Source of the DNA: Bacteroidota bacterium
Lineage (GTDB): Bacteria; Bacteroidota; Bacteroidia; Bacteroidales; VadinHA17
Length of the DNA: 39,287 nt
Direction of reading: 5' to 3'
Assembly (NCBI GenBank): GCA_012729475.1
Contig: JAAYDB010000029.1
Coordinates: 1 to 39,287 of the forward strand
Of the stretch, positions 1 to 39,166 are shown piece after piece. The stretch's first letter is position 1; each line of letters begins with the position of its first letter. A model generated the notes under the pieces. The model was not told the DNA's origin. It ran no database searches and saw only the letters and a list, made by a program, of their open reading frames with translations. The translations under genes and the position numbers were made by a program.

Positions 1-127
1 ATTCATAACCTTCTCCTTCCTTGGTTATAAAAAATATACCATATATTTAAAGTCTTGTCAAATAAATTATGATATTTTAAAGAAAATTTTATAAATATTT
101 TAAAAAACTTTTTAAAAAAGAAGCCCC
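1..127. repeat. Direct terminal repeat, left copy (circular-assembly overlap)
   Basis: Identical to the last 127 bases of the window. It holds the first two codons of the HNH gene, that gene's ribosome site, its promoter and part of the terminator T-run. The exact length of 127 fits a k-mer overlap on a circular or circularly permuted genome better than a biological terminal repeat, though a real short direct terminal repeat is not excluded. Confidence 0.95.
33..61 (-). promoter_or_regulatory. Sigma70-type early promoter upstream of the HNH gene
   Basis: On the minus strand: -35 TTGACA (56-61), 17-base spacer, -10 TATATT (33-38), preceded by TGG (extended -10). Predicted start is near position 26, just ahead of the GGAAGGAG ribosome site of the HNH gene, whose ATG is at 4-6 (= 39164-39166). 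It lies downstream of a terminator at 114-143, so it starts a new transcription unit, probably the first early one. Confidence 0.85.
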
Positions 128-143
128 CGCCGTAACGAGGGCT
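114..143 (-). terminator. Rho-independent terminator closing the leftward late transcript
   Basis: Minus-strand stem AGCCCTCG / CGGGGGCT with loop TTACGG, followed by TTCTTTTTT. The one G-U pair (C-A on the other strand) shows it is built for the minus strand. It insulates the early promoter at 33-61 from transcripts coming out of the late region. Confidence 0.85.
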
Positions 144-840
144 ATTTCGCCTTCAGCTAATCCCATCGAATTCGATGGGATTGGAAGGCTTTAGTGCAAC
201 CTGCCCCACCATGCCACATGGGTCTAATAAGCAGGGCAGTTCTCGGCAAGGTGATGTTATCACATCTGCTTTATCCTGACTTGAACCAGACTTGCCGATA
301 ATTTGTCCTCTTTACAAGGATACTTTTACCCCTTTTTGTCCTCTATAAAAGTCTACTAATGCGACCTTGTAACTCTGCGTCGCACTGGTGGATTATTGAC
401 TAACCCAACATCTACCTTTTATGTCGTAAAAGTAAGTTCACAGCCTACAAATGTTCACTAAATAGTGGACATTATTCACTAATTCCCCTTCCATGAGAAT
501 TACACTATATTGTTACAATTACACGGCAAAGTTGACATCTGCCGTTGGTTTGTCAACTATCTGGTAATTCCAGTTAGTTCCATTTTGGAAACAACTGACT
601 GGTAAGTTCTCATTTTGATACACGATAATTCCATTTTCTGGGTAGTATCATGGGTAGTATTGTGAGTATTTATCGCCCCTTTAGCGCTCCTTTAATGCCC
701 CATTAATTGGACACCTTCCTATCAACTCATCAATATTTCTTACAAGTTCGTTTTCCTTGACTTACAATAGCTTATTCTGTTTAAGTCAACCAACTGGCTA
801 TTATTGTATACACATTGGCTAATCTGTAAGCCTTTTTATC
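138..840 (+). ncRNA. Large structured RNA candidate, plus strand (about 0.7 kb)
   Basis: There is no credible ORF on either strand across this segment, yet it is full of paired elements: hairpin 158-183 (12-base perfect arms) on a GCCTTC/GAAGGC base (149-154/184-189); CTGCCC/GGGCAG (201-206/234-239) enclosing 209-221; a three-way junction closed by TCGGCAAG/CTTGCCGA (243-250/291-298) with arms 251-263 and 265-290; 322-328/346-352; 360-365/379-384; 387-393/410-416; 417-431; 450-473 (10 bp); 480-485/497-502; pseudoknot 523-558; 570-602 (10 bp); 616-621/645-650; 692-706; pseudoknot 757-802. Five G-U pairs (158-183, 390-413, 455-468, 575-597, 624-661) would be A-C clashes on the minus strand, and pseudoknot loop lengths fit only the plus strand. 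The 3' end is probably GGCT/AGCC plus TTTTT (817-837); 138-143 can pair with 829-834 to close the ends. A promoter is not clear. Size and phage setting recall GOLLD and ROOL; family membership is unproven. Confidence 0.7.
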
Positions 841-877
841 TGTTGTCAATTAATACTACAAATGAGGTATAGTTATA

Positions 878-1255
878 CTACAGATTTATCTTATCTCTAT
901 AACAGGCTTCAGCTACTTTTGCTAAATCATCAAGCGTTTTTGCTTTTTCAACTTCCTCATTATAAATTATCCCCAGTATATTAAAAATCACTGCTGATAA
1001 ATGATCCTCGTCCCTTTCACCCAAACGCCACTGCATAAAATGACGCATAGCACTTTCGATAAACCTGTCTGTCGGTATGCCTCTTTTCCAGTTATTTGGT
1101 GCATATTTTTTAGCCCCGTTGGTGTAATGGATAGCAACCCTTTTAAGTGCCTCTACGGGCAATAAATCCCACCTTATTTTATCCTCTGATGTGTCCCTTA
1201 CTGCCCCTGTCGGGTATTCCTGTCTTTTACCGCTGTCCTTTATTTTATAGTTCAT
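878..1255 (-). CDS. dATP/dGTP diphosphohydrolase-like protein (DUF5664 type)
   Basis: 125 aa. The pattern DSGKR near residue 7, GAVRD (17-21), KIRWDLLP (26-33), GAKKYAPNNW (47-56), SAMRH (68-72) and GERDEDHL (79-86) matches the phage family described as the N-terminal domain of dATP/dGTP diphosphohydrolases. The DEDH cluster and RH are the likely metal/nucleotide site. Role by inference: trims the host or phage dNTP pool. No PurZ-type gene is present, so there is no support for a 2-aminoadenine genome. The start overlaps the upstream deoxyribosyltransferase-like gene by 11 bases, which supplies the ribosome site, so the two are translationally coupled. Last gene of the leftward late operon. 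Confidence 0.75.
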   Translation of the reverse strand: MNYKIKDSGKRQEYPTGAVRDTSEDKIRWDLLPVEALKRVAIHYTNGAKKYAPNNWKRGIPTDRFIESAMRHFMQWRLGERDEDHLSAVIFNILGIIYNEEVEKAKTLDDLAKVAEACYRDKINL

Positions 1256-1571
1256 CTATTCCCTCATACAAAACAGGTATGCCTCTTTCATTGGCAACCC
1301 TTATTTCATTTTGCGTCCCTTTAGAATTTTCGCTATTTTCCAAAACATAGACACAATCGCTAACCACTAACCAGCCTAACGAATAATCCTGGATTTCCTT
1401 TAAGCTAATATCCTCGTGAAAGAAAAAATGATAATCCAGCCACGGGCAAAAGGGAATATACCCTTTTTTCAGTAACCTTGCAGAAACCTTAATACCCCTT
1501 TGCATGTTTTTAAATACTTGAATAACATTATCAGAGCTGTAGCTTCCTGCTACATAAACTCGTTTATACAT
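1245..1571 (-). CDS. Nucleoside 2-deoxyribosyltransferase-like protein (DUF4406-like)
   Basis: 108 aa. Rossmann-like pattern: N-terminal strand YVAGSYSS (6-13) with the nucleotide-binding start, a helix ending KKGYIPFCPWLDY (35-47), VSDCVYVLENSENSKGTQNE (70-89, the conserved acidic, Ser, Gly and Glu positions), then a helix and GIPVLY (97-102). This family swaps or hydrolyses the base of deoxynucleosides or their monophosphates. It sits between a metallophosphoesterase and a dNTP-diphosphohydrolase-like gene, suggesting nucleotide salvage. The specific substrate cannot be read from sequence. Confidence 0.75.
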   Translation of the reverse strand: MYKRVYVAGSYSSDNVIQVFKNMQRGIKVSARLLKKGYIPFCPWLDYHFFFHEDISLKEIQDYSLGWLVVSDCVYVLENSENSKGTQNEIRVANERGIPVLYEGIDEL

Positions 1572-1575
1572 AATT

Positions 1576-2772
1576 CTACTCCACCCAATATTTTTTCTTT
1601 CCGATATAAAACTTCTTATCGAAAAAAGTTATTGTTTCATGTCGTACCCTGTTAATCGTTCCGTCTTTGGCCAGCTTAAACTCCAGGATCATTCCACCCA
1701 GCATGGCCTGTATCTTCTTTTTCCGCATCCACCCTGTTTGATCCTGTGTGCAACCTATCTGATATGAATGAACCTCTCTCGGATAACACCATTCCAGTTT
1801 GTGAAAATGCCCCAGTATAAGTATTCTCGGCTTGTCTCCACCCTGGAAGCTCTCTACAATCTTCTGCGGGGTATAAGAAAAAGCATAAGCAGTACCGCCC
1901 CCTGGATGCATAATTCTTATCCAGCTTTCACCGCTTTCAATTCCTTTAAACCTTATGTCAGCTTCAATGTGTCCAATATATTCAAGATCGTCCCTTCCGG
2001 CCAATTTTGCTTTCATTTCAATATATTCGCCCATGTTGATTCTTTCTCTCTTGGCATACCAGCCTTCATGTTCATCAGCAGTAATAAACTTGGTTAAAAT
2101 TCCGTCTCTTTGGGGATATTCTTTAAGAAGATAATCAACTTGAGCAGTCAACCCAACTGTATGGACTTCAAATTTGTTTAAATTACATTCGCCGTCTACC
2201 ATGTTTCCGGCATGTAAAACTATCGGGATACCCTCATCTGCAAAAATATCGTATAAGCAGTTTAAGACATCTAATCTCTCGAATTTACTGCATAAGTGGG
2301 TATCCCCTATTAAACCAAATCTAATCCAGTCGCCTTTCCAATAATCCGGATTAAGACGTTTAACACCACCAGGAACGGTATGATAAGATAATTCATAACT
2401 GTCATTATTGTTGCTGTAGATGTTATATTTATCTTGCTTTAATTCTTCTATAATATTACGCACCTGATAAGGCAATAGCCCTGTTTTGTTGCTTATATTT
2501 TCTATTGATTGCGGTCCAATTTTCAGCAGTTTTATACAGGTATTATATTGATTCTTGTAATTATCAGGTTTTTGAGCTTGATACTTTTTAGCCTTTTTGT
2601 TGATATTAATAACCTTTGTATTATCAGCAGTCAGTTTTACATCTCTGTACACTTTACAGTCTTTGCAATATATTTTATATTTTCCGTTTTTCCTTCGTAT
2701 TTTATACTTTGTATTGTACCCGCCACACACAGGGCATTGCGGTCTCGGTCTTTGATTCCTTTTATTGCCCAA
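1576..2772 (-). CDS. Zinc-finger / winged-helix / metallophosphoesterase fusion protein
   Basis: 398 aa, TTG start behind AAGGTGATTAT. Three parts: a CxxC zinc ribbon (Cys13, 16, 36, 39); a small helical, winged-helix-like segment (about 75-115, ISNKTGLLPYQVRNIIEEL); and a calcineurin-like phosphoesterase domain (about 148-350) with GDTH (156-159), HAGN (187-190), DEHEGW (233-238), a lone His289 and GHFH (321-324). In typical members the second and third motifs are GD and GNHE; here they read GN and DEHE, so metal coordination may differ. The zinc and helix parts suggest DNA binding, so it may be a nuclease or phosphatase acting on nucleic acid. Lying in the lysis/late end is unusual for a replication-type enzyme. 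Confidence 0.75.
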   Translation of the reverse strand: MGNKRNQRPRPQCPVCGGYNTKYKIRRKNGKYKIYCKDCKVYRDVKLTADNTKVININKKAKKYQAQKPDNYKNQYNTCIKLLKIGPQSIENISNKTGLLPYQVRNIIEELKQDKYNIYSNNNDSYELSYHTVPGGVKRLNPDYWKGDWIRFGLIGDTHLCSKFERLDVLNCLYDIFADEGIPIVLHAGNMVDGECNLNKFEVHTVGLTAQVDYLLKEYPQRDGILTKFITADEHEGWYAKRERINMGEYIEMKAKLAGRDDLEYIGHIEADIRFKGIESGESWIRIMHPGGGTAYAFSYTPQKIVESFQGGDKPRILILGHFHKLEWCYPREVHSYQIGCTQDQTGWMRKKKIQAMLGGMILEFKLAKDGTINRVRHETITFFDKKFYIGKKKYWVE

Positions 2773-5679: not shown

Positions 5680-7830
5680 TCAAACATTACTAAAGATAAA
5701 TAAAACATTCGTGGTTTCCCCAGTAGGTGAAGTTTCCTCACTTCCATAGGTTAACAGCGTATCCCAAAGGGAATCATAGGTTGCGGCAATCCATGCTGCG
5801 GAACGAAGGGTTGCGGATAGACGTACCTCATCTATTATCCCGTCAAAAATGGATGTTGCCGAATTAAAATCTCTTCCAAGATAATTAGCCCTGTCCTGTG
5901 ATACATCGGGGTCTCCTGTTTCATTTGCTGTCTGGACATTGCCTCCGTCTACATAAAAATACATATCAGTATTCGCCTTATCCCAGCCGCCTGCCAGATA
6001 CACGTACTGCCCTGTCGTATAATTTGTGTTATTGGTTACAAGCTGATAGCCACCGCCGTCATAATAATAATATTTCCATGTACTTCCAGCAGCGTTTGCC
6101 TCTATCCGTGCTATTCTTCCCTCTAAATCAACAATAATTGCTATTGCAGATTCTGAAGGCAATGTGTCTGCCTTGCAGATTGCCTCAACAGTATAATTAT
6201 CACCGCCAAGAGTATCAAAGGTATTATTAGAACCTATACAGATACCATCATCACTTCCGTCAAAGTCCTGCCCCTGCCCTACCTTGCCTGTGGCTTCTAT
6301 GGGTTCATTTGAGGCTTTTTTCGTGCCGTGATTGGCGTTGGAGGTGGAGTCGGCTACACGATAAACAGGTGCGTCGTAGGTGGTGTATTTAAGATTATCA
6401 ATCCATGTATTAGCAGATGTTCCGCCATAAACACCTATTATTTTTATCCCGTCATGAGCTGCTATTGTACAATTTGTAACAGTACCTTTATAATTTTCAT
6501 TAATCCAGTACATAGCTATATCATTAACTGCGTCAACATAAACTTTCACATGATACCATGTATTGACAGAACAAGCGGTTGAAGTGGGTAAATCCACCCA
6601 ACTAATGTTATTGTAATATTGAAATTTATTATTATATATCCTTAAAACATAACCAGGCTGACGAACAAGATAATTTCCTGTTGTATAAGCGTTTGAAGTT
6701 CGTACATCAAACTCCACTATTGAATAATTAGTAGTACCGCCTACATTTCTTACAAGTGTTGCATCAGCTAATACGGTACTTGCATCAGAAGCAAACTTCG
6801 CCGAATAAGTGCCTGTTTTGGCTTGGTCAGAAGCAGTAGCCACATCAGAACCTGCTGTGTATTCAGTTAAATTATTATCTTCAAAACCATCATCTAATTC
6901 ATCAGTTCCTGTTGGGTCAGGGTCATTCATGTGATACACAGCCTTAAAACTACTATCCCATACCGATTGTGCAGCAGTCCCGCCACTTTTGGAGATGTAG
7001 GTTGTGTTGTGGTCTGCTGTGTTGTCATAGTATAGATAGATGTCCGTATCAGTAGAACTTGATACAGTCCAGCCTGTTTTCGATACATGATAGATTGCCT
7101 TATTTTCGGATACATCAAATAATTCACAATCTGCATATAACTGTGTTACTCCGTCGGAGCTTGTAAAGGCTATTCTGTCAAAGTCCTCATCTGCGTCAAA
7201 TTCGGTGAAGACTTCCCCACCTTGACGAATAACGCCTGTGGCGTAGAGGGAAATAATTCCATTGGTGGTTGAAAACCCTTCATTTGTGCAATTTGTTTGG
7301 TTACCTTTCTTGTACCAATATTCTCCTCCTGAGTCCTTTTCAATACTACCGCCAGTGCAATAAACCCCTAAATAATCCCCTTCTTCTACGTCTAAATCAA
7401 CTGTAAAAGTCTGTTTACTTCCTGCTGTAACACTTCCAATTTCATAGCTGTCACGAGCAGTTAAATTATCTCCATCAGCAGAAAATGTTGCAGCAATTAC
7501 CCCTTCCATATCTATTCCTGCATAAATCTCTACAGATGTTATTTTTCCAGAAGCGTTTGCAGGATTTTCTTTGTTAATAATAGTGAAGTTACGTATGTTA
7601 ACATAAGCTACTCTATCAATCGCCTCTGCCCCAACATCAATATCTCCATAATTCCCTAAAAACACTGTTACAGGAAACCAAGATAAGTCAGCGTCTATTT
7701 TGGTGTGGTCTATGGTTATCTTTATTCGTTTGTCATAAGTGCCAAATAAATCACCAGCACTAACAGATAAGGTCAGTATTAATATTGCTAATATTACAAG
7801 TATCGGTTTTAGTAATCGTTTAAAATTCAT
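5680..7830 (-). CDS. Secreted/fibre-like protein with DUF2341 and LamG domains
   Basis: 716 aa from the ATG eight bases after GAGGG of the overlapping upstream gene. Signal peptide at 1-25 (ILVILAILILTLSVSAG). The following segment (YDKRIKITIDHTKID) opens a DUF2341-type beta domain, interrupted by an inserted beta-rich region and resumed near TDIYLYYDN. The C-terminal third (GQGQDFDGSDDGI, YTVEAICKAD, GIIDEVRLS) is a concanavalin-like LamG fold that binds sugars in other proteins. The middle has another jelly-roll-like stretch. By position a tail fibre or receptor-binding protein, but the signal peptide argues for export to the host surface. Confidence 0.7.
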   Translation of the reverse strand: MNFKRLLKPILVILAILILTLSVSAGDLFGTYDKRIKITIDHTKIDADLSWFPVTVFLGNYGDIDVGAEAIDRVAYVNIRNFTIINKENPANASGKITSVEIYAGIDMEGVIAATFSADGDNLTARDSYEIGSVTAGSKQTFTVDLDVEEGDYLGVYCTGGSIEKDSGGEYWYKKGNQTNCTNEGFSTTNGIISLYATGVIRQGGEVFTEFDADEDFDRIAFTSSDGVTQLYADCELFDVSENKAIYHVSKTGWTVSSSTDTDIYLYYDNTADHNTTYISKSGGTAAQSVWDSSFKAVYHMNDPDPTGTDELDDGFEDNNLTEYTAGSDVATASDQAKTGTYSAKFASDASTVLADATLVRNVGGTTNYSIVEFDVRTSNAYTTGNYLVRQPGYVLRIYNNKFQYYNNISWVDLPTSTACSVNTWYHVKVYVDAVNDIAMYWINENYKGTVTNCTIAAHDGIKIIGVYGGTSANTWIDNLKYTTYDAPVYRVADSTSNANHGTKKASNEPIEATGKVGQGQDFDGSDDGICIGSNNTFDTLGGDNYTVEAICKADTLPSESAIAIIVDLEGRIARIEANAAGSTWKYYYYDGGGYQLVTNNTNYTTGQYVYLAGGWDKANTDMYFYVDGGNVQTANETGDPDVSQDRANYLGRDFNSATSIFDGIIDEVRLSATLRSAAWIAATYDSLWDTLLTYGSEETSPTGETTNVLFIFSNV

Positions 7831-7831
7831 G

Positions 7832-8374
7832 TTATCCCTCAATCAAGGTAAGTGTGATAAGTCCTTTTATATCCTCTTTGGCTATGTATTGCTTTTTCTC
7901 ATAAAACCCTGTGGTCTTGTTTAAAATAAACTTTTCCACGATAGCAAATCGCTTGTCCTCAAATACCTGAACTTGCCTTAACAGGTCAGCCGATTGTTCG
8001 ATATAGGCAGTCAGTTTTTCGGTAAAGTCTATTGCCCCTTTGGTTATCTCTGTTGGGATTTCATCTTTGTAATAGGCTTTTTCCGTTTCCAGCCCTTCAT
8101 CAACTACGTAAAAATGGATATTACGATAGACTGCTGTGTTGTCATCTTTTACTTCACGGACATTAGCCAGATACCACTTACCGCCGTCAGCTTTTACTTC
8201 TTTAAGCTCAACCTGATTAACAGAGTCAACAAAACTTTTATTTTGGATATCCTGTAAGATTTCCTTCACATCAAAGCCGTCAGTAGGGTCAACAGTAATA
8301 ACTTCCTTTGTGTCCTGTGCTATTGCCACTAAGGGCATTAAAATAATCATTAGAATAATAAACAGTTTTTTCAT
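7832..8374 (-). CDS. Exported protein of unknown function
   Basis: 180 aa, AAGGAGATGATTAT before ATG. Clear signal peptide at 1-19 (LFIILMIILMPLVAIAQ) with cleavage after AIAQ, then a soluble charged domain without cysteines or known motifs. The pattern VKEILQDIQNKSFVDS and IHFYVVDEG suggests an alpha/beta fold. It sits between two other signal-peptide proteins of fibre type; a chaperone or accessory for those is only a guess. Confidence 0.65.
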   Translation of the reverse strand: MKKLFIILMIILMPLVAIAQDTKEVITVDPTDGFDVKEILQDIQNKSFVDSVNQVELKEVKADGGKWYLANVREVKDDNTAVYRNIHFYVVDEGLETEKAYYKDEIPTEITKGAIDFTEKLTAYIEQSADLLRQVQVFEDKRFAIVEKFILNKTTGFYEKKQYIAKEDIKGLITLTLIEG

Positions 8375-9861: not shown

Positions 9862-10035
9862 TCACTCCTTATCCACTTTTGTATAAGTACTATCCGTTTT
9901 CTCTACTTTGTGATAAAAAAATGTTTCCTGAAACCAGTCAAAGAACCAGCCCAACTTGAACCAGCCCTGTCCTTTGGATTTATCCACTTTCGTATAAGTA
10001 GAGCTTGTTTTATCGGTCTTTGTATAATCTGCCAT
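9862..10035 (-). CDS. 57-aa protein with duplicated STYTKVDK ends and Trp-rich centre
   Basis: Short gene with AAGGATAAATT before ATG; its stop overlaps the start region of the next gene. The motif STYTKVDK occurs at residues 12-19 and 49-56, with a third degenerate copy at 3-9, flanking an aromatic core GWFKLGWFFDWFQETFFY (24-41). Amphipathic aromatic core between repeated polar ends suggests membrane-surface or fibre-tip binding. No family recognised. It is the first late gene to the left of the antisense insertion. Confidence 0.6.
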   Translation of the reverse strand: MADYTKTDKTSSTYTKVDKSKGQGWFKLGWFFDWFQETFFYHKVEKTDSTYTKVDKE

Positions 10036-10101
10036 AATTTATCCTTGTTTGAGTAAATTTTTAAAATATGGGCGTATTTTGAGATATTTCGGCTATTCCT
10101 G

Positions 10102-10130
10102 TTGACAACGCACCTTGTTTATGGTATAAG
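10102..10130 (+). promoter_or_regulatory. Sigma70-type promoter for the antisense small-membrane-protein pair
   Basis: Plus strand: TTGACA (10102-10107), 17-base spacer, TATAAG (10125-10130), with TGG before the -10 (extended). Predicted start near 10137, giving a leader of about 11 nt that is mostly the ribosome site AAGGGG of the first small gene. Confidence 0.85.
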
Positions 10131-10147
10131 GCAATAAAGGGGCAAAT

Positions 10148-10249
10148 ATGAATAACTACTGCAAAAAAGTTTGCCAGACTCTCAAGTTTGGTCTTGTCAT
10201 TTCTGCTGTCGGTTTGGTTATTCAATTTTTATGCTCCTTAATTCGATAG
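10148..10249 (+). CDS. 33-aa hydrophobic peptide, first gene of antisense pair
   Basis: ATG six bases after AAGGGG, immediately downstream of the promoter. A short basic head with two Cys (MNNYCKKVC) precedes a membrane helix (FGLVISAVGLVIQFLCSLI). It ends within the ribosome site of the next gene, so the pair is coupled. Small single-span peptides of this kind act as toxins, holins or exclusion factors in other phages; none is implied by sequence here. Confidence 0.6.
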   Translation: MNNYCKKVCQTLKFGLVISAVGLVIQFLCSLIR

Positions 10250-10259
10250 GAGGGTTGTT

Positions 10260-10460
10260 GTGATTTATCTAAAAAAGTTTTTTCAATTTATTGCCTTTGT
10301 ATCGTTTATAGTTTTAGTATTAAGTTATGGTGAAGACTATATGACAGGCGAATATTTTGGTTTATTTTATATTTCCACGACTATCAAAATTGCCTGTGCT
10401 GTAATATTCTTCATCTACCTTATGTCCGAAACTATGTATTATTTTGGCAACCGGAAATAA
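10260..10460 (+). CDS. 66-aa two-span membrane protein, antisense to the late operon
   Basis: GTG start five bases after a full AGGAGGG site. Two hydrophobic segments: about 7-23 (FFQFIAFVSFIVLVLSY) and 34-56 (FGLFYISTTIKIACAVIFFIYLM), short polar ends. It is one of only two supported genes on the plus strand, has its own promoter, and its stop is directly adjacent to the stop of the convergent 1521-aa gene with no terminator between. Layout matches a moron: a self-transcribed accessory gene set in a late operon. Function unknown; superinfection exclusion or lysis timing are candidates. Confidence 0.8.
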   Translation: MIYLKKFFQFIAFVSFIVLVLSYGEDYMTGEYFGLFYISTTIKIACAVIFFIYLMSETMYYFGNRK

Positions 10461-25466: not shown

Positions 25467-27317
25467 TTATCGTTTGGCTAATCTTCTCTGTGTCGGTTGA
25501 GGCTGTTGCTGTTGCTGTTGCTGTTGCTGTGCTAACTGTGCCTGCATCTGTGCCTGTTGCTGTGCTAACTGTGCCTGCATCTGTGCCTGTTGCCTTAACC
25601 TTTCCAGTATTTCCTCTTTCTTTGGTAAATCAGAAGATTCAATAACAATATCAGGTGGAATAATTTCACCGTAAATCTTTGCCATATCAAGTAACATTTC
25701 AAAGTTGGCAAAGCGGATAGTCGGATTAGTCGGACTGGCTGATAATTCCACTCCGTATTTTCCTATCTTTCTGCTTCTTATAGCCTCTAATAGCTGGTCT
25801 ACATTCTGTTCTAACTTTGCCTCAGAAGCGATAGCCATCATCTCGGCAGTTGAGAAAGTATTGTTGTATCGGATTAAATCCACGATTGTTTCGGAATATA
25901 TTTTGTGGGAATATCCCACATTATCAAAAATAATTTCACTGCCTATCAATCCCTGATTAATACGCTGTCTGTCCTTAACTCCACTTTCAGAGGTCGGACC
26001 TTGTGCCAGCATATTCTGGTTGACTGAACTTATCTTGGTAGCGTCAAGCTCTGCCATTTCTTCTAATTTGACATGGCCCACTGACAGTTGTGTCGGTTGT
26101 ATCTTGGTTGGCGGTACTGACTTGTAATTGATTACAGGAGCAGGCTCGGTTGCCTGTGCTTCCAGCTCATCTCTGTCAGCCCCTTCTGTTTCGTGATTGA
26201 AGAATCCGCTGTTGACATCAGAATTAAGCAGATTCAAACTTTGTGAACGCCTCTTATTTTTCTCTTTCTGCGGGTCAATTAAGTTGTCTACAACGCCTAA
26301 ACAGTTTCCATTGACATAATATGGTACAAATCTTATTATCGGGAACTTGTTCATTTCCCCGAAAGGTCTTTCGATATGCTCTAATTCAATATCCCCCAGT
26401 GTAGTTGTGCAGTTCATAACTGGGATAATGTTTTCCCTGACTGCAAATATAGGCTGTCTACCTTCTTCCTCTGCCCTTCTGCGGTCTTTTTCAAGTACAA
26501 CCTTTAGCAAATCAAGTTTGCTCTTGTGTACCCTTGTATGGCTCATATTTATAGTGTCAATTAAAAAGGTAGCTTTCTCGTAATGTTTCCACCATGTTTC
26601 CCGGACTCTGCATTTAAACTGGTCTGGTGATACATCACTTCCGGGTATTTTAGTCTTATCCCTGTTATCCAAATCATCATATTTGAGATTGTCAATATCC
26701 TGTTTGCTCTTGGGATAGATGAGCTTAATCTGCTCCTTATCGCCCCAATAGGACTTGATAACATATTTCCCATAGTTCATGTCATATTTCTTGTTCTGCG
26801 GGTCTTCAACAATATCAAAAGGATCTTCCACATCTACTACTATTTCCCCGTTAAAGGGGTCATCATCATATTTAATGTCCAGTGATACAAAGCCTTTAGT
26901 TGAGATAATCCCGTCAAAGAACATGGCACTTCGTAAATACTGGGCATTAGACTGGTCTTCCACATGCTTGCATAGTTCGGTCAGTAATTCTGCAACAGGC
27001 TGTAATCCGCCTTTTTTCGGGAATACCTTAATATCCATGCCGTTTTGCCGTTCATAGCCTGTCAGAAGGTTAATAATCGGGAAGATGATATTCAGGGATA
27101 GGTGCATACGCTTCATTTCATCTAAAATGGCAATATCCCTTGCATCCCATTGTTTATCGCCCCCCATATAAAAGCCATAGTTACGGGTAGCCGCCTGAAC
27201 ATACTCAAACTGCCCTTTATAGCCTTCATCCCAGAAATCCTTAAGTTTAACTATCCTGTTGGTCTGTGTCTTGGGTTTAACGCCTACTGTTACCAATCCT
27301 GAATGTCCTTTTGGCAT
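25467..27317 (-). CDS. Portal protein (P22 gp1 type)
   Basis: 616 aa starting MPKGHSGLVTVG at the ATG eight bases after AAAGAGGT. The N-terminal wing/clip pattern WDARDIAILDEMKRMHLSLN, then IINLLTGYERQNGMDIKVFPK, FFDGIISTKGFVSLDI and DVEDPFDIVEDPQNKKYD are typical of P22-like portals; the C-terminal barrel helix is followed by a Gln/Ala/Met tail (about 585-616). The ring forms the DNA entry port at one capsid vertex and binds the terminase and adaptor. The C-terminus carries tandem repeats and may vary in length between relatives. Confidence 0.8.
   Translation of the reverse strand: MPKGHSGLVTVGVKPKTQTNRIVKLKDFWDEGYKGQFEYVQAATRNYGFYMGGDKQWDARDIAILDEMKRMHLSLNIIFPIINLLTGYERQNGMDIKVFPKKGGLQPVAELLTELCKHVEDQSNAQYLRSAMFFDGIISTKGFVSLDIKYDDDPFNGEIVVDVEDPFDIVEDPQNKKYDMNYGKYVIKSYWGDKEQIKLIYPKSKQDIDNLKYDDLDNRDKTKIPGSDVSPDQFKCRVRETWWKHYEKATFLIDTINMSHTRVHKSKLDLLKVVLEKDRRRAEEEGRQPIFAVRENIIPVMNCTTTLGDIELEHIERPFGEMNKFPIIRFVPYYVNGNCLGVVDNLIDPQKEKNKRRSQSLNLLNSDVNSGFFNHETEGADRDELEAQATEPAPVINYKSVPPTKIQPTQLSVGHVKLEEMAELDATKISSVNQNMLAQGPTSESGVKDRQRINQGLIGSEIIFDNVGYSHKIYSETIVDLIRYNNTFSTAEMMAIASEAKLEQNVDQLLEAIRSRKIGKYGVELSASPTNPTIRFANFEMLLDMAKIYGEIIPPDIVIESSDLPKKEEILERLRQQAQMQAQLAQQQAQMQAQLAQQQQQQQQQPQPTQRRLAKR
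25503..25594 (-). repeat. Gln-rich tandem repeats encoding the portal C-terminus
   Basis: A run of CTG/TTG-type units (25503-25530) encoding poly-Gln, then a 33-base unit twice in tandem (25524-25556 and 25557-25589) encoding AQMQAQLAQQQ. Prone to slippage, so length variants are expected. Confidence 0.85.
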
Positions 27318-27319
27318 GG

Positions 27320-27511
27320 TTATAGACCTCTTTCCTTGATCCACTGCTTATGTCGTAACTTAATATTGCGATAAAACATATTTGCAGTAGTAATCTGTAC
27401 TTTCATGTATTCCCCGCATTTATCGCAAGGCTGGTTATTTCTCTCTGCTACATTACATAGTTTTTCAGTTTCAGCCCCGCATTTGGGGCATTTAAGCTCA
27501 TAGATTGGCAT
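27320..27511 (-). CDS. Zinc-ribbon protein (FmdB type)
   Basis: 63 aa. MPIYELKCPKCGAETEKL and CDKCGEYMKV give two CxxC knuckles (Cys8, 11 and 29, 32) of the FmdB regulatory-ribbon type, followed by a basic tail (IKLRHKQWIKERGL). Its 3' end overlaps the portal ribosome site. Such small ribbons between terminase and portal occur in many phages; role unknown, perhaps in packaging or DNA binding. Confidence 0.8.
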   Translation of the reverse strand: MPIYELKCPKCGAETEKLCNVAERNNQPCDKCGEYMKVQITTANMFYRNIKLRHKQWIKERGL

Positions 27512-27519
27512 ATAAACTC

Positions 27520-28926
27520 CTATACGCTCATGGCTGAGCCATAAGACCTTTTTCTCCTGAATACATTCTTAAAATGCTTTTCCTCTCGTGTTTTTAACAC
27601 ATCAAATCCCTGTGCTTGCCTGATATTAATAGCTGCATATCTTGCAGCTGCCCCTGCGTGGGAATGTTCGTTGTCGTTCTCTGTTTCGGTGTAACGCTGT
27701 TCAAGTTTGTTATATTTCTTGCCCCATTTGCGTAAGTGGTCTAATCCTGCCTTGCATTTTGTCTGGTCAAACCTGCATAAGCCCAACAATCCCCTTAACG
27801 CTTCTACTCCATTTTCAAAGCTGGCAAAAGGTGTCTTGTTAAACAGTATCCCAACATCTTTAGCATGAGCTAATCTGCTTTTGGCTGCGTCTTCTGCTCC
27901 AATCATTTCCCTGTGTTGGATATCATGAGGAGCAAAATGCTTACCATACAGATACGGTTTATCCTGCAATACTTTAGCCCAATAGGTAAATGTCTTGGCT
28001 GTTGCTTCTTCGAAATCTATGAAACGTATTTCCTGCCCTACCTGCTGAACAAACCAGACTGACATGCTATCTTTTCTAATCCCTAAATCCCAATAGGTAT
28101 TGACTAAATAAGTCGGGTCATAAGGCAAATCTTCTATTCTTTCATTATCTTCTAATTCCTGAATTAACTTACCAACATAAGTTCCTTCTATCCCCTGTGA
28201 AAATGAGCAATAATATTCCTGCTGAACAAAATCCTCTGTCTGCCCTGTGGCAAGTTCTTCTTCTATGTCCGCCAAAGAGATTAAACGATAACCCTCGTGG
28301 TCGTAAGTGTCCTTGACAGTGTGCAAACACCGGAACCAGCGATTGTTCTTTGCTGTAATATCCCATAAGTCCTTAAAATGATTATTTCCATTTGGTGTAG
28401 ACTGAAAGATAGCCCAACCGCCATTTTTGAGCAATATCGGTCTAACTACATCCCATGCCCCCGGATGCTGTCTGGAATATTCACTAAAGATAATGCCCCT
28501 TGGGTTAGTTCCTCTCATAGCTTCATAACGATTGTTTTCTGTCCCTACAATCTGGAGCATGGATATATCACCAGTCCTGCTGTAAATACGGAACTTCATA
28601 TCGGTTGAGTTCGGCTTGGAAGCCAGTAATCCTTGTGGCAAATAGGTTTCTAAAAAGGTTTTCCCCTCATCAGTGTAGCCTTCCCAGAGTATCATTCGCC
28701 CCTGTTTTAAGGTCGGATAGACTAAAAAGTATAATCCAGGCTCTTGATACATCTGCTTGATAATCAAATTGATACACCTGATATCTTTCCCGCAACGCCT
28801 GTGGTCTACCCATATTCCACGCTTATAGCCATTTTCAAGCATATTAAAGCTCGGAACTTGCCAGTAATACGGCTGGAAATTATAGGGTATCTGTATTTTA
28901 TTTTTTGTTTGTGTTGCTGTTGTCAA
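27520..28926 (-). CDS. Terminase large subunit
   Basis: 468 aa, TTG start eight bases after AAGGA, overlapping the small subunit by 29 bases. Walker A HRRCGKD (42-48), Walker B GIIFSEY (144-150), coupling motif STPNG (176-180), nuclease acidic residues starting with YWDLG (278-282, Asp280) and the later PHDIQHRE. The ATPase pumps DNA into the prohead and the RNase-H-fold domain cuts concatemers. The Walker B Ser-Glu in place of the commoner Asp-Glu is noted. Length is typical for P22/podovirus-like enzymes. Confidence 0.9.
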   Translation of the reverse strand: MTTATQTKNKIQIPYNFQPYYWQVPSFNMLENGYKRGIWVDHRRCGKDIRCINLIIKQMYQEPGLYFLVYPTLKQGRMILWEGYTDEGKTFLETYLPQGLLASKPNSTDMKFRIYSRTGDISMLQIVGTENNRYEAMRGTNPRGIIFSEYSRQHPGAWDVVRPILLKNGGWAIFQSTPNGNNHFKDLWDITAKNNRWFRCLHTVKDTYDHEGYRLISLADIEEELATGQTEDFVQQEYYCSFSQGIEGTYVGKLIQELEDNERIEDLPYDPTYLVNTYWDLGIRKDSMSVWFVQQVGQEIRFIDFEEATAKTFTYWAKVLQDKPYLYGKHFAPHDIQHREMIGAEDAAKSRLAHAKDVGILFNKTPFASFENGVEALRGLLGLCRFDQTKCKAGLDHLRKWGKKYNKLEQRYTETENDNEHSHAGAAARYAAINIRQAQGFDVLKTREEKHFKNVFRRKRSYGSAMSV

Positions 28927-29474: not shown

Positions 29475-29540
29475 AATTACCCTCTACTTATATAAGGTAA
29501 AGTTTTGGTGTGATATGTAGCATTTTGCAGAAAAATATTT

Positions 29541-29575
29541 TAAAAATAAAAAAACGGACTCAAAATAAGCCCGTT
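29541..29575 (-). terminator. Rho-independent terminator at the early/late boundary
   Basis: Minus strand: stem AACGGGCT / AGTCCGTT (8 bp with one G-U) with loop TATTTTG, followed by TTTTTTTATTTTT. It lies after the sigma-like genes and before the first late gene; no sigma70-consensus promoter follows in the 66 bases to the late gene, so late transcription needs read-through or a different promoter class. Confidence 0.9.
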
Positions 29576-29614
29576 ATTGAAATAATTTATACCAACCATA
29601 CATAAATGTATAGC

Positions 29615-29767
29615 CTAATTTTGAAGTATTTCCCTCAATTTTCCCAATGCCCTTTGTTTTATCCTGTTGACTGTTGTCCTGTGTATTCCCAGCATGACCG
29701 CTATTTCCCTTTCCAGATAGCCATAAAAATAATACAGATAGATGATTTCATATTCCCGCTCATTCAA
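29615..29767 (-). CDS. Sigma factor region 4-like protein (second half of a split sigma)
   Basis: About 50 aa from TTG (MNEREYEIIYLYYFYG...). The HTH YLEREIAVMLGIHRTTVNRI followed by KQRALGKLREIL is the region-4 fold that reads -35 boxes; ERE/L..YY at the start matches LPEREREVL..RY. TTG lies within TTTTGAATGA overlapping the stop of the region-2 ORF, behind AAGGTGGTGAT, so either it is a coupled second cistron or the two frames join by +1 shifting. The same frame stays open upstream (ATG at 29809 possible). Late-gene control is inferred from place. Confidence 0.65.
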   Translation of the reverse strand: MNEREYEIIYLYYFYGYLEREIAVMLGIHRTTVNRIKQRALGKLREILQN

Positions 29768-30959: not shown

Positions 30960-31487
30960 TTACCAATATTCCGGTGGTGTCCTATATTCAGCATCCCTTG
31001 GCACGGTTTTAATCCCCATCATTTCAGCTATCTCACAAACTTTATCCCATTCCAGCCACCAACCGTCTATCCAAACATCAAATAATCTGAATGAATTTCC
31101 AGGATTGTAATCACCGCCACCTTTTTGGATTTTTGCACCATAGCCTTCACCATATAAACAAATTCCCCTTTCTGGTTCTTGCCCTTCACCGATAACTTTT
31201 TTAAATTTTTCTACTGTAAATATATCTTGTAATTTCTCAAGTAAAAATGTTGGCATCTGGGCATTGTCGGTTCTTCCTTTAAAAATTACCCGTTCTTCTT
31301 TGTACATCTCCAACTTTTTATCATAATCAGATGGGCTATAAATCACCCTTACATTAGTTCCGTCAATCTTTTCAGTAATAAGCCAATTATCAATCATTTC
31401 AAATTCTGGTAATCTTATTTTGTCAGTAACTTTAAAAGTATCTTTATCTCTTTCAAATAATGTTTCTATTTTTGGATACTTAATCAT
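30960..31487 (-). CDS. RNA-ligase-like nucleotidyltransferase, C-terminally short
   Basis: 175 aa. Motif I EKIDGTNVRV (39-48; Lys40 is the expected AMP acceptor), FKGRT (69-73), motif III LYGEGYG (111-117), motif IIIa FRLFDVWI (133-140). The protein stops at 175 shortly after TVPRDAEYRTPPEYW, without motif IV (EGxV) or V (KxK) that Rnl2-type ligases need for full adenylyl transfer. The next frame does not supply them and a clean ribosome site follows the stop, so this looks like a natural short form. It may bind or repair RNA in another way, or be inactive. Confidence 0.75.
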   Translation of the reverse strand: MIKYPKIETLFERDKDTFKVTDKIRLPEFEMIDNWLITEKIDGTNVRVIYSPSDYDKKLEMYKEERVIFKGRTDNAQMPTFLLEKLQDIFTVEKFKKVIGEGQEPERGICLYGEGYGAKIQKGGGDYNPGNSFRLFDVWIDGWWLEWDKVCEIAEMMGIKTVPRDAEYRTPPEYW

Positions 31488-32760: not shown

Positions 32761-33486
32761 CTATCTCCTATCATTCATTACTTTCTCCATAAACTGCTCA
32801 TAGCCATTTTGGCTGTTATTAACAATTTTTTCCTTTTTCAAGTGGTATACATCCTGCCAGCAGTGAAAAATTGATTGTTCCATAATTTTAATTTGAGTAT
32901 CAATATCAGGACTTAATTTTTCCAATCTGGTTATTAACATAGACTCTGCTTTATCGGTCATTGGCTTCTTGATTTTATTCCTCATGGTTTTAAAATTTTT
33001 AAGGGTTTTGATAAACACATCGCCCTTTCTTTTGTATAGTTTCTTTTGTATAGTTTCTTTCTTTTCTTTTGTGTGTACCTGTTTGGGTAACAATTTTGTA
33101 CCTATTTGGGTAACTTTGTGTACCTGTTTAGGTAACTTTGTGTCCTGAATAGGTAACTTTTTTTCAGTTTTTTTTGTTACCTGTTTAGGTAACTTTTGCC
33201 ATTTTTCATAGTCTTTTTGAAACGATAATTTTTTCCCGTTTTTAACCAACATATTCCTATCCAATAATTTTTTGATAGTCCTGCTGACATGACTTCTGGC
33301 AATATCGGTCATCTCTGAAATTTGGGTTGTTGTAATCCAATCCTCTGTCTTATTCCAGCCATAGGTTTTCCGAAATATGGCAAATATAATTTGTATCTCA
33401 TAACTTGAAAAATAGGTTTTTGCCATAACCTCTAATAATTCATTTGCTATAGATGTATGTCCGTTTTCCTTTTGTGGATTTGCCAT
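32761..33486 (-). CDS. Replication initiator (lambda O-like), origin inside the gene
   Basis: 241 aa. The N-terminal block ENGHTSIANELLEVMAKTYF (7-26) and IIFAIFRKTYGWNK (33-46), then winged helix ITTTQISEMTDIARSHVSRTI (51-71), is the phage replication protein O N-terminal domain. The middle (about 95-140) is a Lys/Gln/Pro linker with repeats LPKQV and LPIQ encoded by the iterons. The C-terminal third (about 155-241) is helical and would contact the helicase loader. O-family proteins bind origin iterons and recruit DnaB through the loader, and the origin lies within the gene itself. Confidence 0.85.
   Translation of the reverse strand: MANPQKENGHTSIANELLEVMAKTYFSSYEIQIIFAIFRKTYGWNKTEDWITTTQISEMTDIARSHVSRTIKKLLDRNMLVKNGKKLSFQKDYEKWQKLPKQVTKKTEKKLPIQDTKLPKQVHKVTQIGTKLLPKQVHTKEKKETIQKKLYKRKGDVFIKTLKNFKTMRNKIKKPMTDKAESMLITRLEKLSPDIDTQIKIMEQSIFHCWQDVYHLKKEKIVNNSQNGYEQFMEKVMNDRR
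33000..33193. other. Replication origin candidate: five iterons beside an AT/pyrimidine tract
   Basis: Five copies of TACCTGTTTRGGTAAC-like iterons at 33076-33091, 33099-33114, 33121-33136, 33143-33157 (one base shorter) and 33178-33193; first-to-first spacing is 23, 22, 21-22 and 35-36 bases. Each is a near-palindrome GTTACCT-N4-AGGTAAC. Next to them lies a tandem 14-base repeat CTTTTGTATAGTTT (33029-33042, 33043-33056) and a pyrimidine tract up to 33072, a likely melting region. Same arrangement as lambda ori inside gene O. Confidence 0.8.
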
Positions 33487-38644: not shown

Positions 38645-38689
38645 TAAAAAAAACCGAGCCTGCTACCGTTTGGGCAGAGAGTCGGTTTT
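38645..38689 (-). terminator. Rho-independent terminator of the HNH gene
   Basis: Stem AAAACCGA/TCGGTTTT with inner CTGC/GCAG and an intervening loop, then nine T on the minus strand; T-rich also on the plus side, so it may act in both directions. The HNH stop codon lies inside the stem-loop. Confidence 0.85.
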
Positions 38690-39166
38690 AATTTTGTTTT
38701 TATTTAATTGTTCTTCTAACCATTTCCTTTTTTGAGGATTATTAATCCAGCCATATATAGTTGCTTTTGTTACACCAAAAATATTGGCAAGTTCCTTTAT
38801 ATCCTTACCATATATTAATTTATATTTTGTTGGGCGTCCTTTTATGGTATTTTCTTCTCCGTCTGTATTATGTAATGGTTCATGGCATTTTCTACATACT
38901 GCTAATAAATTATTTAATTCATGATTATTTTTGTTTCCATCTATATGGTGAACTATCATAGCTGGTTCTCCACAGATTTCACATTTGCCTTTTGTTCTTT
39001 TTAAAACTTCAATTCTTGCTCTTTTAAAATCTGCATGATTTGGATATTGAGAAGTACCGCCATTCCAACGAGGATTATTTTCACCAATCATTGCTTTTCT
39101 TCTACCCTCTCGAAACTCTTTATCTCTTTTGATTTTTCTATTAATTGTTTTTTGATATAAATTCAT
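38663..39166 (-). CDS. HNH homing-type endonuclease
   Basis: 167 aa, AGGAG six bases before ATG. The N-terminal part has a NUMOD3-like GENNPRWNGG (28-37). HNH core: CEIC (62-65), VHHIDGNKNNHELNNL (72-87; His73/74 catalytic/metal), CRKCH (91-95). The C-terminal DIKELANIFGVTKATIYGW (122-140) is a HTH. This combination is standard for phage homing or free-standing HNH nucleases. It carries its own promoter and terminator and sits beside the genome joint, with no sign of being in an intron. Confidence 0.85.
   Translation of the reverse strand: MNLYQKTINRKIKRDKEFREGRRKAMIGENNPRWNGGTSQYPNHADFKRARIEVLKRTKGKCEICGEPAMIVHHIDGNKNNHELNNLLAVCRKCHEPLHNTDGEENTIKGRPTKYKLIYGKDIKELANIFGVTKATIYGWINNPQKRKWLEEQLNKNKIKTDSLPKR

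Follow-up and report, generated by a model that had tools for sequence, protein, structure and literature searches.

A candidate large structured noncoding RNA in the longest gene-free stretch of a phage genome

INTRODUCTION

What does a phage keep in the longest part of its genome that holds no gene? The window analyzed here, the whole 39,287-nucleotide stretch of contig JAAYDB010000029.1 (GenBank assembly GCA_012729475.1), is a complete phage, and near its start lies a block for which a preliminary description proposed a large structured RNA that would be transcribed from the plus strand, opposite to the genes, and might be akin to GOLLD or ROOL. To our knowledge, phages encode only a few large structured RNAs, none of them with an established function. 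A further, unrelated one, if real, would suggest that phages have acquired such RNAs repeatedly, and it would offer a separate system in which to ask about their role in infection. The questions at this locus are whether the block specifies an RNA and from which strand.

RESULTS AND DISCUSSION

A gene-free stretch between two operons

The first and last 127 bp of the contig are identical, and since this terminal repeat is exact, the genome corresponds to a circle of ~39,160 bp. Genes for the terminase large subunit (27520-28926), portal (25467-27344), tail and endolysin are present; essentially all supported phage genes lie on the minus strand, and a simple rule finds purine-rich ribosome-binding sites at 26 of 45. 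The ORF scan confirmed that the longest stretch devoid of a supported gene is the one described earlier: 7-877 has no ORF of at least 60 aa, and none of its frames encodes a recognizable protein. On the circle, this stretch sits between the stop of one minus-strand gene (878-1255) and the start of another (38663-39166). The main features, in the order of minus-strand transcription, are as follows.

878-1255, minus strand: dATP/dGTP diphosphohydrolase N-terminal-like gene (PF18909, E = 6e-21), the last gene of the late operon, upstream of the block
803-830, minus strand: weak promoter-like site CTTACA-16-TACAAT (9 of 12 consensus bases, chance level), a possible promoter of a minus-strand RNA
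144-840, probably minus strand: structured ORF-free block, proposed body of a large noncoding RNA on the basis of its lack of ORFs, fold z and purine skew
122-143, minus strand: intrinsic terminator AGCCCTCGTTACGGCGGGGGCT + TCTTTTTT from the terminator scan, where both the RNA and the late operon are proposed to end (3')
33-61, minus strand: strong promoter TTGACA-17-TATATT (11 of 12 consensus bases) of the next operon, just past the terminator
38663-39166, minus strand: HNH-like gene (PHROG HNH endonuclease matches), first of the next operon, its start codon at 39166 being position 6 on the circle

The upstream neighbor shares 90% DNA identity with part of one gene in viral contig L005 (5001-5225), a phage that is otherwise unrelated and whose contig ends inside its copy; such identity despite the different phage background indicates that gene 878-1255 moves between phages. 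One relative of the phage backbone was found in a Limnochordia bin. The window itself is one contig of a draft genome, and a 16S search aimed at identifying the host turned up no 16S gene in that bin.

The block is predicted to fold densely

The dense folding predicted for 138-840 was borne out at the sequence level. The fold z was -6.98 on the plus strand and -4.20 on the minus strand (100 dinucleotide shuffles), beating every shuffle on both. When the long 5' hairpin was left out, the remaining 192-840 still gave -4.66 and -2.60, respectively (100 shuffles each). As controls, we used 42 tiled 649-nt windows from the same phage, for which z averaged -0.1 on the plus strand (sd 1.1, lowest -2.5) and -0.3 on the minus strand (sd 1.3, lowest -3.5); 192-840 scored -5.1 and -2.1 in that run. 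Thus, on the plus strand the block stands well outside the controls even when the long hairpin is omitted, whereas on the minus strand it does so only with the hairpin, 192-840 lying inside the control range. Segments of the block folded singly reached only -0.7 to -2.6, and because each is only mildly unusual, the signal is spread over the block. Watson-Crick complementarity is strong and strand symmetric (z without G-U pairs, -4.4 and -5.2), and pairs predicted with confidence numbered 166 on the plus strand versus 128 on the minus strand.

At least a dozen stems and one three-way junction, as in the preliminary description, were recovered as confident predictions. The elements of the block are listed below.

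149-189, either strand: predicted long stem-loop GCCTTC...GAAGGC around a 24-bp perfect palindrome, AATCCCATCGAATTCGATGGGATT (159-182)
201-239: predicted stem 201-206/234-239 with inner hairpin 209-221 (plus strand), or a 10-pair stem 239-230/210-201 with three G-U pairs (minus strand)
243-298: predicted three-way junction of 243-250/291-298, 251-255/259-263 and 265-273/282-290 (plus numbering)
312-434: candidate pseudoknot, 312-319/365-372 with 321-329/426-434 and 345-351/416-422, from complementarity
450-473, strand unassigned: predicted ten-pair hairpin
493-613: predicted multibranched domain closed by 493-501/605-613, with stems 517-526/561-569, 530-537/551-558 and 570-579/593-602
757-789, strand unassigned: predicted hairpin of ~13 pairs near the high-coordinate end

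Read on the minus strand, the last arm of the junction at 243-298 carries a sequence, GGUUCAAGUC, that looks like a T-loop. For the pseudoknots proposed earlier, complementarity gives candidate helices, with nine perfect pairs in 321-329/426-434 and eight pairs in 312-319/365-372; the candidate at 312-434 competes with a hairpin at 350-365/379-394.

Transcription signals and the strand of the RNA

We favor the minus strand, that of the genes; this preference is a judgment and not a computed figure. It is tempered by composition-controlled folding energy, which favors the plus strand, by 2 to 3 z units (more in one run) and at every boundary tried. The plus-strand reading, in which the same kind of large RNA would run against the genes from the AT-rich 40-135 to ~840, is judged less likely and, taken by itself, is somewhat improbable, although it is the alternative that survives best. 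Besides the better fold z, it gains from its larger number of confident pairs and from the behavior of 14 reference stretches (rRNA, RNase P RNA, ROOL and ICP1-type RNAs), in most of which the sense strand has the better z. The exception is the ICP1-type RNA of phage eugene 12A10, where the antisense z is better by 1.6 units, so the plus-strand advantage of the block is real but not decisive. The sense fold z of ROOL is only -1.3.

The preliminary description had argued for the plus strand from five G-U pairs in the stems. When stems were sought with G-U and A-C given equal treatment, the block yielded 9 G-U versus 4 A-C, in the direction claimed, yet on sense E. coli 16S and 23S rRNA and RNase P RNA the same count comes to ~1:1, so it has no power to tell the strands apart and lends the plus-strand reading no support. 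Nor is the opposite bias confined to the minus-strand terminator, as had been stated: minus-strand helices 239-230/210-201 and 715-709/700-694 each contain three G-U pairs.

Transcription signals point to the gene strand. The only terminator-like site in 1-1300 is 143-122 on the minus strand, directly bordering the block; the scan gave none on the plus strand. The helix 138-143/829-834, proposed earlier as possibly closing the ends, shares an arm with the minus-strand terminator. The best plus-strand promoter-like site has only 9 of 12 consensus bases. A plus-strand RNA would moreover be run through in antisense by the late operon up to 143-122. For an RNA on the minus strand, the 5' end would lie somewhere in 797-877.

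Base composition argues in the same direction. Unpaired bases in the minus-strand fold (A, 0.48; G, 0.20) resemble those of the sense strands of rRNA, RNase P RNA, ROOL and ICP1-type RNAs, whereas those in the plus-strand fold (A, 0.27; G, 0.04; U, 0.41; C, 28%) resemble the antisense strands and are unlike the sense strand of every reference. Read on the minus strand, the block has a GC skew of +0.17 and an AT skew of +0.14. The corresponding values at fourfold-degenerate sites (n = 3,772) are -0.11 and -0.01; since these sites show no purine skew, that of the block does not reflect a mutational strand bias of the phage. Coding sequence overall has skews of +0.15 and +0.16, like the block, which fits a minus-strand reading of both, with the caveat that a purine skew is shared with the coding strand in general and that other short gaps vary widely.

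Searches for known families and relatives

All 4,227 families of Rfam 15 were run against the window at the gathering score and against 1-1300 at E values up to 10; nothing reached the gathering score in the window, and nothing credible appeared in 1-1300. The possible membership in GOLLD or ROOL was not borne out: the covariance model of ROOL (RF03087) found no match, although the same scan detects ROOL in the Lactobacillus salivarius plasmid pMP118 at 130 bits, and the models of GOLLD and OLE, for which there was no such positive control, were likewise silent. GOLLD and ROOL often lie near phage tRNA genes, a frequent rather than strictly required association; ARAGORN found no tRNA genes in the window. 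A search for ROOL in 198 genomes of the phylum was negative, and uninformative, since the controls were silent too.

Searches for DNA relatives of the block among phages, plasmids, 60 relatives, 35 viral records and 393 genomes of the same order returned only short chance or palindrome matches. One recurring match (query 429-464), in RhuM-like genes with 9 aa shared, was dismissed as coincidence inflated by palindromes on both sides. Exact-pattern scans of viral contigs gave chance matches, which BLAST did not extend, the last set lying inside long open frames. No relative of the neighboring genes or of the phage backbone extended into the RNA region. The nearest phage, L054, whose portal is 74% identical, is present only as a fragment, which apparently stops short of the region. 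Covariance models R1 (192-300) and R2 (493-613), each built from a single sequence and so reaching only fairly close relatives, matched nothing other than the window itself in searches of 1.18 Mb of viral DNA and of sets of 295 and 395 genomes.

Comparison with large RNAs of other phages

The closest likeness is to Vibrio phage ICP1, a phage without tRNAs whose most abundant transcript is an ORF-less RNA of ~0.8 kb (PMC7567579). Both loci have an ORF-less gap (~1 kb in ICP1) among genes of the same strand, then an intrinsic terminator and then a TTGACA-type promoter; in ICP1 the terminator is AAAACCTCGCCATTGTGCGGGGTTTT, and it and the promoter that follows are on the gene strand. The two are also alike in size, in the composition of unpaired bases on the gene strand and in the absence of tRNAs from the phage. 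The window thus has the ICP1-type layout, an ORF-less gap on the gene strand that ends in an intrinsic terminator, the strand of the RNA itself presumably being that of the genes. The ICP1 RNA was detected by RNA-seq, whereas that of the block is predicted from the sequence. In sequence and structure, neither BLAST nor a covariance model matched the block to ICP1-type RNA: model R3, covering one 170-column ICP1-type domain, gave a best score of 9.2 bits in 1-900 (246-280, minus strand), which is not significant.

Diverged relatives of the ICP1 RNA occur in other Vibrio phages, some of them beside tRNAs. The ICP1 RNA and its relatives lie at the following places.

L242, 14098-15108, minus strand
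L244, ~1330-2200, plus strand
L243, ~1015-1830, plus strand
L245, ~700-1640, plus strand

From the terminator and the covariation of the gene-strand fold, we infer that the ICP1 RNA is read with the genes. Of the 37 pairs in the 170-column domain, 10 differ at both positions with pairing preserved, a count from two sequences only. No Rfam family matches the ICP1-type RNA, so this large phage RNA seems to form a class not yet registered.

GOLLD is a large RNA (over 800 nt) found in phages and prophages, with levels that increase during lysis, and both GOLLD and ROOL form RNA-only cages (PMC12286853). The block resembles GOLLD as a large phage RNA, ROOL in size (~540 to 660 nt) and in its phage or mobile-element setting, and OLE in belonging to the ~600-nt size class. 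It differs from all three in having no Rfam match, from GOLLD also in the lack of a tRNA island and from ROOL in that its phage has no tRNAs.

A proposed RNA of the late operon strand

We propose, with moderate confidence, that the region specifies a large structured noncoding phage RNA of ~0.70 to 0.75 kb, read with the genes and ended by the terminator at 143-122. The earlier proposal of a large structured RNA thus survives as the best explanation of the region, separated from the plus-strand reading and from GOLLD or ROOL membership. Transcription would enter from the late-operon end or from the weak site at 830-803 on the minus strand and run from ~840 to 144. The transcript would end in two adjacent hairpins, the palindromic 189-149 and then the terminator 143-122, before the promoter of the next operon. 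Once free, the RNA may fold into several hairpin and junction domains and accumulate late in infection as a stable scaffold, possibly a multimer, rather than as a message. It is presumably made and stable; the block is a single sequence, for which we found no homolog. By analogy in size, setting and layout, its function is most likely like that of GOLLD, ROOL and the ICP1 RNA. More tentatively, it might be the first known example of a large ornate phage RNA class of its own, with no sequence relationship to GOLLD, ROOL, OLE or the ICP1 RNA, and it might form its own RNA-only or RNA-protein particle in late infection. The layout itself yields a search rule: 0.6 to 1.2 kb without an ORF on the gene strand, an intrinsic terminator and then the next promoter.

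The same signals would also fit a ~735-nt structured 3' untranslated region of the late operon that stabilizes or regulates the mRNA in cis, given that the only terminator comes this far after the last late gene and that the block has no good promoter of its own. We consider this unlikely: usual phage 3' ends are far shorter than ~735 nt, and the ICP1 and ROOL precedents are discrete RNAs.

It is less probable still that the block acts as DNA, as a site for packaging or replication with many inverted repeats. The 24-bp perfect palindrome and the strand-symmetric complementarity are what such a site might show, and packaging sites often have HNH genes nearby, as the block does. Its structure, however, consists of many different stems over 0.7 kb rather than iterons, it ends at an intrinsic terminator, and a likely origin lies elsewhere: repeats of GTACCTGTTTxGGTAAC at 33080-33200, with a plus-strand fold z of -6.5, sit inside a gene like that of phage replication protein O (32761-33486) and are likely a lambda-type origin with iterons inside O. 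Equally improbable is a nonfunctional or decaying sequence with chance hairpins, for although only one sequence is known and its segments are only mildly unusual singly, no frame bears a trace of a decayed gene and the whole block stands out on the plus strand even when the long hairpin is removed.

Other structured regions

Structured gaps also occur in other viral contigs. In L071, a 1,161-nt ORF-free region (6695-7855), ~0.8 kb upstream of a terminase gene 40% identical to that of the window, has long imperfect hairpins and extreme fold z values of -12.3 and -6.9 on the two strands (10 shuffles). No Rfam family matches this region, a further candidate for a large structured RNA or a DNA element. 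A largely ORF-free structured region of ~1 kb in L094 (7495-8563; also in L095, 1-500, and in L170) lies upstream of terminase between divergent operons, with z of about -6 on both strands (800 nt). Gaps in L078 and L076 were set aside as local repeats on reading.

Within the window, a match to the ribosomal protein L20 leader at 29540-29660 on the minus strand (21 bits against a cutoff of 58.7; E = 0.08) is probably due to chance. The second-longest gap by a 70-aa rule, 9866-10460, is probably coding, as on its minus strand there seem to be small ORFs in which a YTKVDK motif recurs. The protein encoded at 30960-31487 on the minus strand carries an RNA_ligase Pfam domain (PF09414, E = 1e-15) and could be an RNA or a DNA ligase.
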